Shown here in pieces: positions 28,498 to 37,325 of a DNA stretch of 64,000 nucleotides. The translations under genes and the position numbers were made by a program. Each line of letters opens with the position of its first letter. The first letter of the stretch is position 1. Under the pieces are notes generated by a model. That model searched no databases, was not told the origin of the DNA, and saw nothing but the letters and a program-made list of their open reading frames with translations. The DNA is from Tistrella mobilis KA081020-065 (GTDB lineage: Bacteria > Pseudomonadota > Alphaproteobacteria > Tistrellales > Tistrellaceae), in contig NC_017956.1 in NCBI RefSeq assembly GCF_000264455.2, positions 3,392,001 to 3,456,000 on the forward strand, in the 5' to 3' direction.

Positions 28498-29088
28498 ATG
28501 CTCTATGTCCTCTGCCTCCCGCGTTTCGCTGCCGCCGATGCAGACCGGATCGATGCCTTCCGCCGCCGCCACGAACCGGCACGGGCCACCCTGGTGCCCC
28601 CGCACCTGACACTGGTCTTCGGTGCGGCCATGGCCTGTCGGCCGGCCCTTGAAACCGCCCTGGCTGCCGTTGCGGCCACGGAACCGGCCTTCGATCTGAC
28701 CCTGGGCGATCCGCACACCCATCTGGACGACAGACGGCGCGAATACGCCTTCTATCTGCGCGCACTCGACGGCACGGGGCCTCTCGCCCGCCTTCACGCC
28801 GCCCTGCATGACGGCTCGGGCCTGCCGACCCGCCGCCCGGACACCCCCTTCGATCCGCATCTGACCCTGACCGGCGCCCCGGAAGCGGAGCCGGTCACGG
28901 CAGCCGCCGCGGCTTTCGCCGCCGACGCCTGGCCGTTGCCGGTGCGGGGCCATGTGGATGCGGTAGAGATCGTTCAGCTGCTGGAGGGACGTCTTGACCG
29001 CCTGACGCGCGTCCCCCTGGCCGGAAGTGTCCTCTTGGCCGAAAAGGGCGCAACCGGCGAGGCATGCCCTCAGGACGTACGGTCATAG
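28498..29088 (+). CDS. 2H phosphoesterase / 2'-5' RNA ligase family protein
   Basis: This 196-residue protein has the two HxTx motifs that define 2H phosphoesterases: His36 in PPHLTLVF and His121 in FDPHLTLTG. The family includes the 2'-5' RNA ligase LigT and cyclic phosphodiesterases acting on RNA or ADP-ribose phosphates. The actual substrate is not known. Its 3' end overlaps the convergent PIN gene by 19 bases. It follows folD by 31 bases and may be cotranscribed. Confidence 0.8.
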   Translation: MLYVLCLPRFAAADADRIDAFRRRHEPARATLVPPHLTLVFGAAMACRPALETALAAVAATEPAFDLTLGDPHTHLDDRRREYAFYLRALDGTGPLARLHAALHDGSGLPTRRPDTPFDPHLTLTGAPEAEPVTAAAAAFAADAWPLPVRGHVDAVEIVQLLEGRLDRLTRVPLAGSVLLAEKGATGEACPQDVRS

Positions 29089-29639
29089 AACAGGATCCTG
29101 CCCGCCGGCAGGATCTGATTCATGAGATCAAAGTCGCGGATGTTTCTGGTCAGGACGGTATACCCCTGCTCCAGCGCCTGGAGATAAATGGCGGCGTCGT
29201 TGAACGCGGCGACTTCCTGTCCTTTCGGAAGCCGCCCCAGGCGGAACAGCAGACCGGCCAGAATTCCGGCTTCCAGCAGAACGCCAGAGGTCGGCGCATC
29301 AAGACGGTGGCCTGGAATCGCGTCGACGACCTGGCTCAGCTCTCGAAGGACGTCGGCGCTGCCGGGATGATCAGGGGTCAGGCGCCCGAAATTGTGACAG
29401 AGTTCCCCCACGGCAATGGCACTGTGCTGGATCTGGCGGGTCTCCAGAAGCGCATCAAGTGCAGGACTGGCCGATCCTTCCAGCATGTCGACATAGACCG
29501 ACGTGTCGAGCAGCAAGGGCGGCCCAAGCCTCTGAGCCCGATCGGCAAAGGGCAGGTCCGTGCGGGCACGGCGGGTGAGCGTGCCGGACCACGTCTCGGG
29601 CCGGAGGCGGCGCAATGAACGGGCGAGGCCGACGCGCAA
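29070..29639 (-). CDS. PIN-domain toxin (VapC-like)
   Basis: This 189-residue protein carries a PIN ribonuclease domain with the acidic residues expected for the active site: Asp45 (LLLDTSVYVDM), Glu79 (AVGEL), Asp148 (FNDAAIYLQAL) and Asp169/Asp171 (NIRDFD). The family cleaves RNA, often tRNA, when free of its antitoxin. The start is probably TTG 29639, five bases after the antitoxin stop with GGAAGG upstream. About 40 basic residues precede the PIN core, so a later start is possible. The 3' end overlaps the 2H phosphoesterase gene antisense. Confidence 0.8.
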   Translation of the reverse strand: MRVGLARSLRRLRPETWSGTLTRRARTDLPFADRAQRLGPPLLLDTSVYVDMLEGSASPALDALLETRQIQHSAIAVGELCHNFGRLTPDHPGSADVLRELSQVVDAIPGHRLDAPTSGVLLEAGILAGLLFRLGRLPKGQEVAAFNDAAIYLQALEQGYTVLTRNIRDFDLMNQILPAGRILFYDRTS

Positions 29640-29644
29640 AAGGG

Positions 29645-29938
29645 TCAGCCTTCCAGAGTGCCCTTGGGAACCCGCCCCCGCCGGGCCAGAAGCTGCCGGC
29701 CGAAATCATCCTCCAGCGCAACCTTGCTCAGGGCGTAAAGAAGCAACTCGCTGGTGCTTGCGGCACCGCTGCGGGCCCTGGCCGCCGCAAGGAGCTTCGA
29801 TGGCACACGCCCGCCCACCGCCGTATCGCGGGCGCCGAGCAGCCCTTCTGCGTCAGCGGCCTCGAAGGCGAGCTTCCGGCGGGCTCGCGCGAGATCCTCG
29901 TCCGGTTCGACGGCTGCCTGCACGGTTTCCGGCGCCAT
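29645..29938 (-). CDS. Putative antitoxin partner of the PIN toxin
   Basis: This 97-residue protein sits directly upstream of the PIN gene. Its second half, GGRVPSKLLAAARARSG then ASTSELLLYALSKVALED, resembles a ribbon-helix-helix DNA-binding unit (strand, two helices), and the C-terminal tail could block the toxin. ATG 29938 has AGGAGGG seven bases upstream. A palindrome 42 bases before the start is a likely autoregulatory operator. I recognise the architecture rather than a named family. Confidence 0.7.
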   Translation of the reverse strand: MAPETVQAAVEPDEDLARARRKLAFEAADAEGLLGARDTAVGGRVPSKLLAAARARSGAASTSELLLYALSKVALEDDFGRQLLARRGRVPKGTLEG

Positions 29939-31707: not shown

Positions 31708-32922
31708 TCAGCGGCGATCGCCGCGGCGGGCACCGAGACGCAGACGCAGGGCGTTCAGCTTGATGAAGCCCTGGGCATCGCGCTGGTCGTAGACCTGGTC
31801 GGCTTCGAAGGTCGCAAAGGCCTCGTCATAGAGGCTCTTCGGCGACTTGCGGCCGACGACGATCACATTGCCCTTGAACAGCTTCAGCCGGACGGTGCCG
31901 GTGACGTTCTCCTGGCTCCGGTCGATCAGCGCCTGCAGCATCTCGCGCTCGGGCGAGAACCAGAAGCCGTTATAGATCAGCTCCGCATAGCGGGGCATCA
32001 GCTCGTCCTTGAGGTGCGAGGCACCGCGGTCGAGGGTCAGGCTCTCCATCGCGCGATGCGCGACCAGCAGGATGGTGCCGCCCGGGGTCTCGTAGACGCC
32101 GCGCGACTTCATGCCCACGAAGCGGTTTTCGACCAGATCGAGCCGGCCGATGCCGTTGGCGCCGCCCAGATCGTTCAGGCGGGTCAGCAGGGCCGCAGGC
32201 GTCAGCGCCTCGCCGTCGATCGCGACCGCATCGCCCCGCTCGAACGAGATCTCGACATAGGTCGGCTCGTCCGGGGCCGCGGCGGGCGAGACCGAGCGGG
32301 TGAACATCTCCTCGTCCGGCTCGACCCAGGGATCTTCCAGGGCGCGGCCTTCATACGAGATGTGCAGCAGATTGGCGTCGGTCGAATACGGTGCCTCGCC
32401 GCGCTTGCCCTTGGCGATCGGGATCTGATGCTTCTCGGCATAGTCGATCAGTTTGGTGCGGGAGTTGAGATCCCATTCGCGCCAGGGCGCGACCACCTTG
32501 ATGCCGGGCTCGAGCGCGTAATAGCCAAGCTCGAAACGGACCTGATCATTGCCCTTGCCGGTGGCGCCATGGGCGACCGCATCGGCGCCGACCTGACGGG
32601 CGATCTCGATCTGGCGCTTGGCGATCAGCGGCCGGGCGATCGAGGTGCCGAGCAGATAGACGCCCTCGTAAAGGGCATTGGCGCGGAACATCGGGAAGAC
32701 GTAATCGCGCACGAACTCCTCGCGCAGATCCTCGACGAAGATCTCGGAGGCGCCCATCATCTCGGCCTTCGCGCGCGCCGGCTCCAACTCCTCGCCCTGG
32801 CCGAGATCGGCGGTGAAGGTGACGACCTCGCAGCCGTAATTCTCCTGCAGCCAGCGCAGGATGATCGAGGTGTCGAGACCGCCGGAATAGGCGAGGACGA
32901 CTTTCTTGACGTCGCGGCTCAT
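31708..32922 (-). CDS. argG: Argininosuccinate synthase
   Basis: This 404-residue enzyme joins citrulline and aspartate using ATP in arginine biosynthesis. The ATP-pyrophosphatase loop AYSGGLDTS is at residues 11-19, and [13 protein letters not shown] and the [13 protein letters not shown] citrulline-site motif are intact. The ATG at 32922 gives the normal family length. A strong promoter (33043-33070) lies about 120 bases upstream. No other arginine genes are in the window. Confidence 0.97.
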
Positions 32923-33042
32923 GATCTGAAGCCCCCGGGAACGACAGGATGTGGGCGGAAGGTGCGGGCATCGCGGCGCCAGGAACCATACGGACGGCCG
33001 CAAGCGCGCCGCCCAGGCCCCCGAGGGGCCGCGGATCGGCGC

Positions 33043-33070
33043 AGTATAGTGCAAACGCGCGCGGCGGCAA
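33043..33070 (-). promoter_or_regulatory. Likely sigma-70 promoter of argG
   Basis: On the minus strand TTGCCG (33070-33065) and TATACT (33048-33043) are spaced 16 bases apart. The argG ATG lies about 120 bases downstream, leaving a moderately long leader. Confidence 0.6.
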
Positions 33071-33116: not shown

Positions 33117-35879
33117 TCAGTTCGCGATCAACGTGAACGCAGCCCAGGTCTCCTCGGGCACGCCGGCGAGACGCCCCTCCAGCACATCGAGTTTGGTTGC
33201 CCTGAAGGCGGTCTCGTAGCTTTCGCCCGCCGCAAGATGGTCGTAGAACCGGGCCATGAACCGGGCGGCGCCGCGATCGGAGACAGGCCAGCGGGCAAGC
33301 AGGCTGCGTCGGACACCAGCGGTCGCCAGCGCCGAGGGGAGGCCTGCCAGACCTTCGGCATAGCTGCGGTCGCCCTCCGCCGTGTCGCAGGCCGACAGGA
33401 CCACCAGATCGATGCCGTCCAGCGGCCAGGTCGCAAGTTCTGCGGCCGTCAGCCGACCATCATCTCCGTCGCCCGCCGCAAGCAGGACCCCGGCACGGTC
33501 GAGCGGATCATCCGCTCCCGGGTGCAAGGGTTCGAAGAAGCCATGCGTCGCGAAATGCAGGACCCGTTGCCCGGCGGCCGCCCGACGGACAGCGCCGGCA
33601 CGGGCATCCTGTCCGCGCAGCACGACGGGCGGTATGCCCCCGGCCCGGGCGGTGGCGGCGATGCCGTCGATTTCGGCCGCGGTGAAGGGCAGCGGCGATG
33701 CCGTCCCGCCGTAATCCACATCGCCCACCAGAAGCACACCGTTGCGATCGGTATCCTGAGGCATGTCATGGTCCCCGCCGGCCAGCGCCCGGCCGCTGCG
33801 GGCGATGCGAAGATCCAGGCCGGCGATCAAAGGCCACCCCGCCTGATCGACCAGCACGTCGAACGGCACCAGGGTGAGCAGCCCGTCCGGCACCACCGTC
33901 AGGCGGTCGACCCCATCGAGTTCGGACATCACCGGCCGGATCAGCTGGTCATAGAGCCGGCGGCGGGTGTCCTCTTCTGCGGCCGCACCAGAATCCGCCA
34001 TCAGCTCCGACACCGCCGCCACCGGCCCAAGGTCGAAAAGCCGGATCTCTCCCCCGGCCCGGCCGAGCATGACCAGGATGCGCTCCTCCACCCGGTCCGG
34101 TGCCATGCGCATCGGCACGGTCATATAGTCGAGCACGGCATCGCCCGGCCGGAAGGCCGAGAGGATCTCCCCATAATCGAGCGCCTGTTGCGCCTGTAGG
34201 CGGCGCAGACCCGAGACCCGGTCGGCGAGGGCGGCCTCGGCCAGATCGAGCCGGCGTTCGATGGCCTGACGGTCGGCACCGGGGCGCAGGCTCTGTGCCG
34301 TCAGATTCCGGATCTCGGCCACGAGTGCCCGATCCGCCGCCGGGAGTTCCGCAGCCGCCCGGTCGAGAAGGGCGCGCTCCAACGAGCCCGGAGCCTTCCA
34401 GTTCAGCATCACCCGGGCGACCAGTGCGATTGCCCGGGGGTCCGAACGTCCGGCGGCATATCCGTAGGACAGGATGTCGCCCAGAGTTTCGCGGGTGGTC
34501 GCGGCGACCTGCTCAATCACCGCCTGATCCGAGGTCGAGGCATATTCGCGCCGCGCCCAGAGCCGCAACCTTTCCTCCAGCCGGCTATAAGCCGGGGTAG
34601 CCTCGGCGGTCTTCAGCGCACGTTCCGCCCGCGCGACATTGGTCGCCATCGAAATTGCCACCGGATGCAGCGGGCCGAAATGCCGCTCGGCCAGGTCGAG
34701 CGACAGCCGGTGCAGGCGCAGCTCGGCCGCAGGCTCGCCCCGGCGTTCGGCGATGCCGGCCAGACGGTTGGCCAGATACACCGCATCGGCATCGACCGTC
34801 CCGGCGGTCAGCTGCGCTTCAAGCGCCGCGAGATCGCCCGGGTCCCCGGACGGCGCCGCCCCGGTCAGGACCGCGATCATGTCGCGCTCCCGGGCAATGC
34901 GACGCGTCTCGGGATGATCCGGGCCGCGTGTGCGTGCCAGCGTCTCGACGACCTGATCATACAGCCCCGCCGCCTCTTCCGCCCGGTCGAGCCCGATGAG
35001 ATCCAGGGCGAGATTGCGGGCACTGATCAGCGTTGCACCATGGGCAGGCCCAAGATTCGCGCGCCGCCAGTCGAGGGCCGCCCGGTCGAGCGGCTCGGCC
35101 TCGTCATGGCGGCCGAGATCGCGCAGCACCGCCGCCAGATTGTTGGCCTGACGCATGGTCTCGTCCGAGGGGCCGAGCGCCTGGCCGGCGCGTGTCCAGG
35201 CCTCGCGCAGATGCGGCAGGGCGGCGGCAGGCCGCCCGGCCATGCCGTAGGTCTGGCCCAGGGCGCCGATCGCCACAATCGTGTCTTCGGCGTCCGGGCC
35301 TTCCAGACGTTCGAACATCTCGGCCGCGATGCGCCCCTCGGCAATCGCCGCGTCGTAATCGCGCCGGTCGCGATGCAGGGCGGCCAGGTTGAAATGGGTG
35401 ATCGCAAGGGGCACGCTCTCGCCGGCGCCGGCCATCACCGCCACCAGCCGGTCGAAAACCGGCACGGCGCTGTCGGGATGACCGGTGTTCTGAAGTGCGA
35501 TCGCCGTGTTGTTCAGGATCGGCGGCAGACGCTCGGGGTCCACCTCGGCCAGCCGGTCGAAGGCGGCATCGCGCAGCGCCCGCGCCTCCGTGGTCTCTCC
35601 GGCCTGTTCCAGCATGATGGAGAGTGTCAGCCGCGCCGCAAGCGTCGCCGTCGCATCCGCCCCCAGCACCCCGGTCCTGAGCGCCACCAGCTCGCGCGAC
35701 AGCTCGACCGCCTCGGCCCGGCGCCCTCGTGCATCGGCAGTGCCGATCGCCTCTTCCAGCGCCGCGTCACGCCGGCCCGGATCCTCCGCCGCACCCGTCG
35801 GCCATGACAGGAACAGCAGCCCGTTGATCACGAGAGCACCCGCCAGGCGACGTGACAGCGGAACGAGACGACGGATCAT
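33117..35879 (-). CDS. Exported TPR-CHAT domain protein (caspase-like)
   Basis: This 920-residue protein has an N-terminal signal or anchor ([21 protein letters not shown]) and about 400 residues of tetratricopeptide-like repeats, for example [20 protein letters not shown] and [21 protein letters not shown] long helical linker follows, then a C-terminal CHAT domain. The caspase-type dyad is visible as His779 in LHFATHGFF and Cys831 in [15 protein letters not shown] proteins are proteases or scaffolds in signalling and defence. The predicted export argues for an envelope or periplasmic role. It neighbours a membrane cyclase on the same strand, 99 bases away. The substrate is unknown. Confidence 0.88.
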
Positions 35880-35978: not shown

Positions 35979-37325
35979 CTATGGGGTCACTTCGATCGCC
36001 ACCAGTGTGACCGCGCCGTCGAGCCCGTCGACCGGCGCAGCCCCAAGTCGCCGGAGGCCGACGCCCGGCCCCACCCGCCAGCCAGTCGCTTCCGCGGCAT
36101 CGACCACCGCCGCCTCGGCCAGGGCCGCGACACCGGCCTTGCGGGTGTGCTTCTCGATCTTGGCCGCCAGGTTGACCGGGGCGCCGATCACGGTCAGTTC
36201 CAGCCGGCTTTCATCGCCGACCGCACCGAAGACCACCCGGCCTCCGGCAATGCCGATGCCGATCGCCACCGCATCCAGCCCACCCAGCCGGCGGGCCTCG
36301 TTCCAGCGGGCCACCGCATCCAGCACCGCGGTGGCCGCCGCCATCGCCCGGGCGCCATGGGCCGGATCGGGCGCGACGGCGCCGAAGGTCGCCATGATGC
36401 CGTCGCCCAGGAATTTGTCGATGGCACCGCCCTCGGCCTGGATCACCGGCACCAGCCGGGCCTGGTATTCTGCCAGCAGGCTCATCAGCGCATCCGGCGC
36501 CAGCCGCTCGCTCATCCGGGTAAAGCCGCGGATATCGATCATCATGATCGTCGCCTCGCGCTCGGCCCCCGAACCCGGGGTCATCGCCAGCCCGGTCTCG
36601 GCGATGCGCCGGGCGACGTCGGGCGCGAAGAACCGGGCGAGCGAGGCCCGGGCCGCACCCTCTTCTTCGGCACGCACCAGCAGGGCCCGCGCCCGGGCGA
36701 GGCCCGCCGCCAGCACCACCGTCACCACCAGGATGACCACGATCTTGTCGATCTCGGCGCCGATCAGAACCAGCGGCCCGCTCATATAGGCGACATAGTC
36801 GCGGGTGATCACCCCCATGCCGCCCCCCTCCCAGAGGGCGTAGAACAGCAGCGCCAGCCAGCCGCCTGCCGCGGCCATCCCCGCCAGCAGCACATAGCGC
36901 GGCTCGAAGCGCAGGCAGCGCAGGGCGATGAAGATGAACACATAGATGAAGGTCGGCGCCTTCAGATAGAAGGCGGCCGGCTGGTGGTACTGGATGTGGA
37001 AGCTCCAGATCAGCCCGATCAGCAGCGCCATGTCGGCCACCACCGACAGGGCCAGATACCAGCCCGGCAGCGGCCCCAGATAGGCGAGCTTCAGCCGGAT
37101 GACGGTGAAGACGGTATAGATGCCCAGCGCCCAGGGCACCGGCATGAACATGAGGTCCGAGCCCCCGGCCTTGGGGCTGACCAGATAAAGCGTGCCGAAG
37201 AGCAGGATGATGCCGACCTGCGCCCAGCCGACCAGACGTTCGGCCCCGGCCTCGGCCTCGGCGATCGCCATCTGCAACCGCGCCGGCATGTTGCCCGGCG
37301 GCCGGCGTACCCATCCGAACCTCAT
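35979..37325 (-). CDS. Membrane-bound class III adenylate/guanylate cyclase
   Basis: This 448-residue protein has about six to seven hydrophobic segments (residues 35-210) followed by a class III cyclase catalytic domain. The metal-binding aspartates are Asp264 (MIDIRGFTRMSE) and Asp308 (DKFLGDGIMATFGA). The later GDESRLELTVIGAPVNLAAK supplies the usual substrate and transition-state residues. It should make cAMP or cGMP in response to a membrane signal. No receiver or GAF domain is seen. A weak CCCCA-CTA-TGGGG hairpin follows the stop. Confidence 0.9.
   Translation of the reverse strand: MRFGWVRRPPGNMPARLQMAIAEAEAGAERLVGWAQVGIILLFGTLYLVSPKAGGSDLMFMPVPWALGIYTVFTVIRLKLAYLGPLPGWYLALSVVADMALLIGLIWSFHIQYHQPAAFYLKAPTFIYVFIFIALRCLRFEPRYVLLAGMAAAGGWLALLFYALWEGGGMGVITRDYVAYMSGPLVLIGAEIDKIVVILVVTVVLAAGLARARALLVRAEEEGAARASLARFFAPDVARRIAETGLAMTPGSGAEREATIMMIDIRGFTRMSERLAPDALMSLLAEYQARLVPVIQAEGGAIDKFLGDGIMATFGAVAPDPAHGARAMAAATAVLDAVARWNEARRLGGLDAVAIGIGIAGGRVVFGAVGDESRLELTVIGAPVNLAAKIEKHTRKAGVAALAEAAVVDAAEATGWRVGPGVGLRRLGAAPVDGLDGAVTLVAIEVTP

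Follow-up and report, generated by a model that had tools for sequence, protein, structure and literature searches.

A TPR-CHAT gene beside a class III cyclase in Tistrella mobilis, and an apparent CHAT/CHASE2-cyclase cassette in other CHAT lineages

The gene P0001, which encodes a TPR-CHAT protein, lies next to the gene of a membrane class III cyclase, P0002, in a 64,000-nucleotide stretch of the Tistrella mobilis KA081020-065 genome (assembly GCF_000264455.2, contig NC_017956.1, positions 3,392,001 to 3,456,000 of the forward strand), here called the window. In other clades of CHAT proteins, the CHAT gene recurs beside a cyclase gene with a CHASE2 domain, in what looks like a real cassette of a TPR-CHAT protein, a small exported protein or MtxA, and a CHASE2 cyclase. 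P0001 itself is, on sequence grounds, a solitary and accessory gene in a separate clade, an outgroup and not the CHAT/CHASE2 system itself, and the general CHAT-cyclase idea is better supported than its instance in the window.

CHAT genes of several lineages are linked to CHASE2 cyclase genes

CHAT relatives were found at E<=1e-8 in 60 of 372 genomes of the class that includes the window's source, presumably the Alphaproteobacteria. The matches numbered 91, including the window's own, and 80 of their neighbourhoods (53 genomes, 34 family codes) make up the first sample; ten matches besides the own one were left out, mostly for short contigs or as extra copies (G018, G064, G088 twice, G140, G231, G311, G338, G343 and G369). 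Three of the 80 CHAT frames were missed by phmmer and recovered by tblastn. Of these neighbourhoods, 22 encode a class III cyclase near the CHAT gene, and they represent 21 genomes and 16 family codes. Outside this count stand three of the ten omitted matches (G018, G140 and G311), which have CHASE2 within ~2.5 kb on their contigs. CHASE2 is present in 21 of the 22 linked cyclases; Pfam models run on 20 of them detected Guanylate_cyc in all 20 and CHASE2 in 19, while the cyclases of L067 and L094, outside the scanned set, were counted as CHASE2 proteins by position. No other neighbour family recurs as often as the cyclase family within 4 kb of the CHAT gene (21 regions, 16 family codes). The expectation by chance is ~0.8 CHAT-CHASE2 pairs within 7 kb, given 90 CHAT and 153 CHASE2 matches in 59 genomes; this figure, like the one for the second sample below, is a yardstick and not a P value, the genomes being related. 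An earlier note on this DNA had suggested that P0001 and its cyclase neighbour might be a signalling pair; the broader class of idea, in which an exported CHAT protein is linked to a membrane cyclase, is supported by these regions and by the second sample for CHAT clades other than that of P0001. The remaining 58 regions lack a cyclase, some of them because their contigs end.

In 14 of the linked regions, which come from 13 genomes and 11 family codes, the CHAT and cyclase frames share a strand and are 0.5-0.8 kb apart, and a small gene of ~230 codons is readable in the gap in ten of these; in the other eight linked regions the two genes are convergent, divergent or farther apart, or the cyclase lies upstream. 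Eleven small middle proteins were aligned, namely these ten and that of L085, where the orientation differs, and most look signal-like at the start when read by eye. No Pfam family was found for them, two matches at E 0.07-0.08 being all that the search returned, and none of their PDB matches was convincing. Loci with the cassette include L061, L072, L076, L077, L078, L083, L087, L093, L094 and L100, among others. The cyclase label changes 12 times on the CHAT tree (no fewer than 7 by the starred branches), versus 19.7 times with shuffled labels; as far as this tree goes, the linkage is clustered, yet it is found in several separate lineages. At one further locus (L024 2-1522, in G287) an open reading frame (ORF) that by eye resembles a signal-bearing, C14-like caspase adjoins the CHAT gene, which would place two caspase-fold proteins side by side.

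MtxA occupies the middle position in most pairs of a second sample

A second sample was taken from the phylum, where CHAT was found at E<=1e-20 in 101 of 398 genomes; CHASE2 was searched in 63 of these 101, and seven others were covered by the CHASE2 search of the first sample. Picking pairs by eye from the match lists gave at least 12 CHAT-CHASE2 pairs, a lower bound, versus 1.35 expected, and in every one CHASE2 is on the same strand 0.1-1.5 kb downstream of CHAT. The CHAT gene was present at 12 of 12 loci and the cyclase at 11, the twelfth contig ending early, and the N-termini of 11 CHAT frames look, by eye, like signals or carry a lipobox. A scan of the middle gene at eight loci gave matches to DUF7354, MtxA_IG-like and MtxA_C every time; a profile of the middle proteins matches the solved MtxA at E 1.8e-125. 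At a ninth locus (G504) MtxA_C falls in the gap by its coordinates, which brings mtxA between CHAT and cyclase to nine of the 12 pairs. The small protein of L152 is of the first-sample type, and at L150 and L153 the cyclase adjoins CHAT with nothing between. Loci at which mtxA sits between CHAT and the CHASE2 cyclase are L145-L148, L151 and L154-L156. When MtxA_C itself was searched, 41 of 396 genomes carried it, and among the 47 matches listed at least 19 have CHAT upstream and at least 17 have CHASE2 downstream within 3 kb, where the CHAT matches considered are those from MtxA genomes and the CHASE2 matches those seen adjacent.

According to passages of PMC4439547, MtxA is a magnetotaxis protein that carries a signal peptide, and its gene is followed by that of a CHASE2 adenylate cyclase; deletion of mtxA produced no discernible phenotype in standard culture, and the word CHAT is absent from the main text of that paper. 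The present gene order suggests that MtxA may be part of a general envelope-signalling cassette, although the MtxA-bearing genomes could themselves be magnetotactic, and it gives MtxA a testable context. A search for MtxA_C in the window genome found none, which sets this genome apart from the magnetotactic MtxA/CHASE2 arrangement and from the second-sample pairs with MtxA-family genes.

Cassettes also occur on plasmids. On pMSHV of Sphingobium herbicidovorans the order is CHAT, CHASE2 cyclase, small protein, and hhalign relates this small protein to those of the first sample with a probability of 97%. The pMSHV cassette (L141 4792-10632) lies, within the stretch L141 3956-13848, between a gene for a Crp/Fnr-family regulator and a ShlB/FhaC secretion gene, the latter followed by a very long gene. 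Among five plasmid regions with a cassette-type CHAT gene, the cyclase is present in two (Niveispirillum and Sphingobium) and absent from those of Bradyrhizobium, Rhizobium and Pseudosulfitobacter; the Niveispirillum example is the L094 region and is not independent of the first sample.

Taken across lineages, the linkage of CHAT proteins to cyclases that would sense outside signals hints at a little-noticed bacterial signalling module. No description of CHAT-CHASE2 linkage was found in the open-licence PMC text searched, and it may be known outside that body of text. A passage of PMC3501461 describes a metacaspase-CHASE2 fusion within one cyanobacterial protein, the caspase part of which is predicted to be cytoplasmic.

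P0001 carries TPRs, a complete dyad and a predicted signal peptide

The features of the P0001 locus, in window coordinates, are as follows.

33117..35879, minus strand: TPR-CHAT gene P0001, 920 residues (ORF and Pfam)
33126..33968, minus strand: CHAT domain, residues 638-918 (Pfam PF12770, E 3.4e-58)
33387..33389, minus strand: codon of dyad residue Cys831, the sole cysteine (Cys in 86/86 aligned CHAT domains)
33543..33545, minus strand: codon of dyad residue His779 (His in 86/86 aligned CHAT domains)
34536..35780, minus strand: helical (TPR) region, residues 34-448 (Pfam TPR_12/TPR_10; AlphaFold2 helices; kinesin-light-chain-type TPR matches)
35787..35879, minus strand: predicted Sec signal peptide, residues 1-30/31, without a lipobox cysteine (home-made rule; ortholog N-termini similar)
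35979..37325, minus strand: membrane class III cyclase P0002, 448 residues, without CHASE2, upstream neighbour (Guanylate_cyc, E 1.8e-13)
31708..33054, minus strand: argG (argininosuccinate synthase), downstream neighbour, outside the system (Pfam)

The P0001 ORF runs from an ATG at 35877-35879 to a stop at 33117-33119. Its CHAT match scores 197.8 bits against a curated cut-off of 24, and several TPR families match the N-terminal part, TPR_12 and TPR_10 above their Pfam cut-offs, with repeats similar to those of kinesin light chains. The earlier note had read an intact His779/Cys831 dyad from the sequence; both residues and their codons were located, and both are kept in all 86 aligned CHAT domains, every one of which was retrieved through similarity to the P0001 family.

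The N-terminus of P0001 combines basic first residues with a hydrophobic core and a cleavage site of small residues, as recognised by a home-made rule that overlooks some lipoproteins. The four orthologs of P0001 (described below) have signal-like N-termini by rule or by eye; for the Rhizobiales ortholog the rule picked a doubtful start and the signal was read by eye. The signal- or anchor-like N-terminus noted earlier is borne out, and export of P0001 as a Sec-signal protein is supported by these sequence features. The same rule passes 47 of the 74 complete CHAT frames of the class, versus 74 of 377 neighbouring control ORFs, once six CHAT frames open at the 5' end are set aside. Among the 20 complete frames linked to a cyclase 13 pass, and reading by eye adds a signal or lipobox for another six; among the other 54, judged by the rule only, 34 pass. 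By this measure an export-like N-terminus is ordinary among the CHAT relatives of the class, and that of P0001 is not exceptional.

It is nonetheless conceivable, if unlikely, that the N-terminus is an uncleaved anchor, or that translation begins downstream and leaves P0001 in the cytoplasm. The hydrophobic core is moderate, with a best 19-residue mean hydropathy of 1.43 and no window at 1.5; the start codon was assigned from the sequence alone; and, as we read the alignment, ~70 residues that stand between signal and repeats in the orthologs are absent from P0001. Against these points, the orthologs and Shinella have comparable signal-like N-termini, the hydrophobic core leads into a cleavage-like site, and a core of moderate strength disfavours a stable anchor as well.

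Structure prediction gave limited guidance on the catalytic part. The AlphaFold2 model of full-length P0001 has a mean predicted local distance difference test score (pLDDT) of 66 and is good mainly in the TPR part, and its 50 listed fold matches are all TPR or other helical-repeat proteins. A model of the CHAT domain on its own is of low confidence (mean pLDDT 58). Its fold matches, to be read with that limit in mind, are to Craspase TPR-CHAT (Z <=12.3; where well aligned, these cover mainly the half that lacks the dyad), DdvA (10.2, over the half that contains it), SAVED-CHAT (9.2), separase (8.6) and MALT1 (7.9).

The resemblance to Craspase extends to the order of TPR and CHAT parts and to the H/C dyad. 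Csx29 works with Cas7-11 in an RNA-guided complex, where it cuts Csx30; cleavage is lost with the H615A/C658A change, and the dyad is repositioned when RNA binds (passages of PMC10028731). P0001 differs by its export-like signal, and its two adjacent genes are a cyclase and argG, not Cas7-11 or Csx30; on these grounds we reject it as a Craspase member. A further CHAT protein linked to the membrane is HetF of cyanobacteria, which differs in being a membrane protein of the divisome, with residues 1-555 assigned to its CHAT part (passages of PMC8406250).

The only PDB sequence match of a CHAT profile built from the P0001 clade is 8rot (also 8rw5), a CHAT protein, at E 3.4e-5 with the H and C motifs inside the alignment. 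Its title names the transmembrane anti-sigma factor DdvA, a CHAT protein with a tie to the membrane. By the topology in that title, DdvA would have an anti-sigma domain and a membrane helix in addition to CHAT. We reject P0001 as an anti-sigma factor of this type: only ~30 residues precede its predicted cleavage site, which leaves no room for such a domain and helix, and no 19-residue window reaches a mean hydropathy of 1.5.

P0002 and the history of the P0001 locus

P0002 precedes P0001 in the gene order, on the same strand and across a gap of 99 bp, and argG comes after P0001. The earlier note had described the next gene on the same strand as a membrane class III cyclase; class and strand stand, while the gene lies 99 bp upstream and does not follow P0001. 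The search of the 99-bp gap gave no terminator-like site, so co-transcription of the two genes is possible. P0002 has several hydrophobic segments, and Pfam detects in it neither CHASE2 nor any domain besides Guanylate_cyc. It is one of ten class III cyclases encoded in the 6.5 Mb of this genome. Its alignment with the CHASE2 relatives shows A382 where 19 of 20 have D and K389 where 20 of 20 have R, two positions that we take to be important for class III catalysis; the substrate or activity of P0002 may be unusual.

The cyclase is 97% identical in both close relatives, G001 of the same species and G002 of the same genus, and in each the CHAT gene is reduced to a remnant. In G002, similarity to the window covers the cyclase and the gap and ends ~5 codons into the CHAT gene, past which the sequence is 94% identical over 495 bp to the gene lying beyond the CHAT remnant in G001. 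In G001 the remnant comprises roughly the first 94 codons, with the frame lost near codon 84, and the last 16; ~2.4 kb between them is gone, the deletion junction has a 5-bp overlap, and ~1.5 kb including an epimerase-like gene separates the remnant from the cyclase.

L017 8858-8873 and L018 2016-2347: CHAT remnants in the relatives, with different end points beside the conserved cyclase

An ORF that we read as transposase-like lies ~0.7 kb further along in G002, where a contig other than that of the cyclase also encodes a different CHAT-like protein of ~756 residues with no obvious signal (L004 1438-3708), matching P0001 weakly at E 1e-5. The argG gene is not adjacent in either relative and is located elsewhere in both. 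Judged from the CHAT remnants in G001 and G002, CHAT and cyclase genes were probably adjacent already in the common ancestor of these genomes and that of the window. The CHAT gene would then have been lost twice, with different end points and with the cyclase kept, in a natural series of knock-outs.

Farther afield the cyclase is not found with the gene. Family- and order-level searches cover three genomes, and among 385 genomes of the class a search at E 1e-40 matched the window's own genome only. A scan of 84,980 species genomes yielded four full-length orthologous loci at 50-55% identity, in Inquilinus limosus, a record labelled Mycobacterium sp. KBS0706, Paracoccus versutus and a Rhizobiales bacterium; the CHAT protein of the P. 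versutus megaplasmid pTAV3 is identical to one of the four. None of the four has a cyclase in its available flanks, nor does the pTAV3 copy, and no neighbour gene is common to the four loci, shared neighbours being confined to Inquilinus and KBS0706, which are near relatives. Between these two (L056 and L053, respectively) the neighbours are mostly 88-99% identical, with one pair at 56% and the CHAT proteins at 78%, and the Mycobacterium label is probably wrong. P0001 and its orthologs form one clade of five rows (SH-like approximate likelihood ratio test support 98), separate from the CHAT clades of the cassettes.

These observations bear on the pairing of P0001 with the cyclase that the earlier note had put forward, together with a check for conserved linkage. 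That check gave no cyclase at any of the four orthologous loci and two losses of CHAT beside a kept cyclase, and a conserved P0001/P0002 pairing is rejected on the loci examined. The earlier note had named the absence of a conserved neighbourhood with any partner as refuting its idea, and for P0001 these loci show such an absence. The two genes are likewise rejected as a CHASE2 cassette, since P0002 has no CHASE2, the 99-bp gap holds no further gene and the linkage is not kept. P0001 resembles the cassettes in its exported-looking CHAT protein, its dyad and the nearby class III cyclase, but the cassette proteins belong to other CHAT clades and their CHASE2 cyclase usually lies downstream, whereas P0001 has a cyclase without CHASE2 upstream. 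The cassettes also include a small exported gene or mtxA, and P0001 and P0002 have none between them, although L150 and L153 lack it too.

As a dedicated signalling pair, periplasmic P0001 would control P0002, for example by cutting or binding it, so that a signal in the envelope changes cyclic nucleotide levels, as a reduced version of the CHASE2 cassette. The shared strand, the 99-bp gap with no terminator-like site and the ancestral adjacency in three genomes all speak for it, as do the CHAT genes of other clades that lie beside CHASE2 cyclases well above chance; we estimate the probability of chance adjacency at ~0.3%, from ten class III cyclases and an assumed ~6,000 genes. It is quite unlikely all the same, given the four orthologous loci without a cyclase, a cyclase still 97% identical in G001 and G002 after CHAT was lost (and ~1.5 kb from the remnant in G001), and a P0002 that has no CHASE2 and departs at A382 and K389. 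A functional tie between the two proteins is thus possible but not favoured, and at long odds, because P0002 lacks CHASE2, differs at two positions and survives loss of CHAT. For the last of these reasons P0002 is probably not a dedicated partner of P0001.

Proposed mode of action of P0001

We lean, by a small measure, towards P0001 being a soluble periplasmic TPR-CHAT cysteine endopeptidase that acts as a one-protein envelope sensor. P0001 would be exported by Sec, with ~30 N-terminal residues removed, and its TPR solenoid would bind a peptide or protein ligand. Binding would order His779 and Cys831 allosterically, as target binding does in Csx29, and the CHAT domain would then cleave, at one or a few sites, an envelope substrate whose gene lies elsewhere. 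What the sequences show is the domain architecture, the intact dyad residues, a signal-like N-terminus that recurs in the orthologs, an accessory distribution and, at the loci compared, no partner gene that is kept. The TPR-to-CHAT allostery of Csx29 provides a precedent for this mechanism, and DdvA (8rot) one for membrane attachment of a CHAT protein. Proteolysis by P0001 is something we infer, as are its substrate, ligand and downstream effect.

Several observations weigh against the sensor reading. Loss of the CHAT gene in both close relatives makes it dispensable there, and its ancestral adjacency to the cyclase in three genomes is improbable by chance, with ten such cyclases in 6.5 Mb. 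The hydrophobic core is only moderate, and the signal rule is positive for 74 of 377 control ORFs as well. Both structure models are weak and the dyad region falls below pLDDT 50, so that the dyad geometry is unsupported and Z values of ~8 may mean little. No candidate substrate of P0001 emerged.

P0001 could instead be an anti-phage or abortive-infection protease, perhaps acting with the cyclase in a Pycsar-like manner. CHAT is listed among the effector domains of bacterial defence in a passage of PMC10907252, relatives either lack the gene or have it broken, and PADLOC models of PycC match P0002 (best E 9.4e-25) while BovA matches the CHAT part weakly (E 9.2e-4). The PycC matches, however, number nine, as expected for a generic class III cyclase domain, and in the same PADLOC scan of P0001 and P0002 no Pycsar effector model matches P0001. 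A cyclic nucleotide in the cytoplasm would be out of reach of an exported protein. In addition, the Pfam-identified neighbours of the locus are argG, a glutathione S-transferase and a metallo-beta-lactamase-fold protein, and a scan of viral contigs with two peptide patterns gave 40 candidate stretches among which no relative was confirmed. We regard a defence role as unlikely.

For the cassettes of other clades, the exported protease and its small partner would act on the periplasmic CHASE2 domain. Generalised further, exported TPR-CHAT proteases would provide the input to a widespread cyclic-nucleotide system that reaches from periplasm to cytoplasm, with a small periplasmic adaptor (MtxA in one group) and with the protease cutting or contacting the periplasmic face of the CHASE2 cyclase, the window pair being a simplified, strain-variable version; we regard this combined proposal as improbable. 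TPR-CHAT proteins with a solved mechanism work with RNA-guided complexes, and an exported CHAT class with CHASE2 receptors would join caspase-like proteolysis to control of cAMP. CHASE2 cyclases already have a place in Sinorhizobium symbiosis, where they respond to a plant protein via the outer-membrane protein NsrA (a passage of PMC13001267).

Elsewhere in the window (29070-29930), a PIN-domain-like ORF and an adjacent small ORF, the latter antitoxin-like by eye, may represent a toxin-antitoxin pair.

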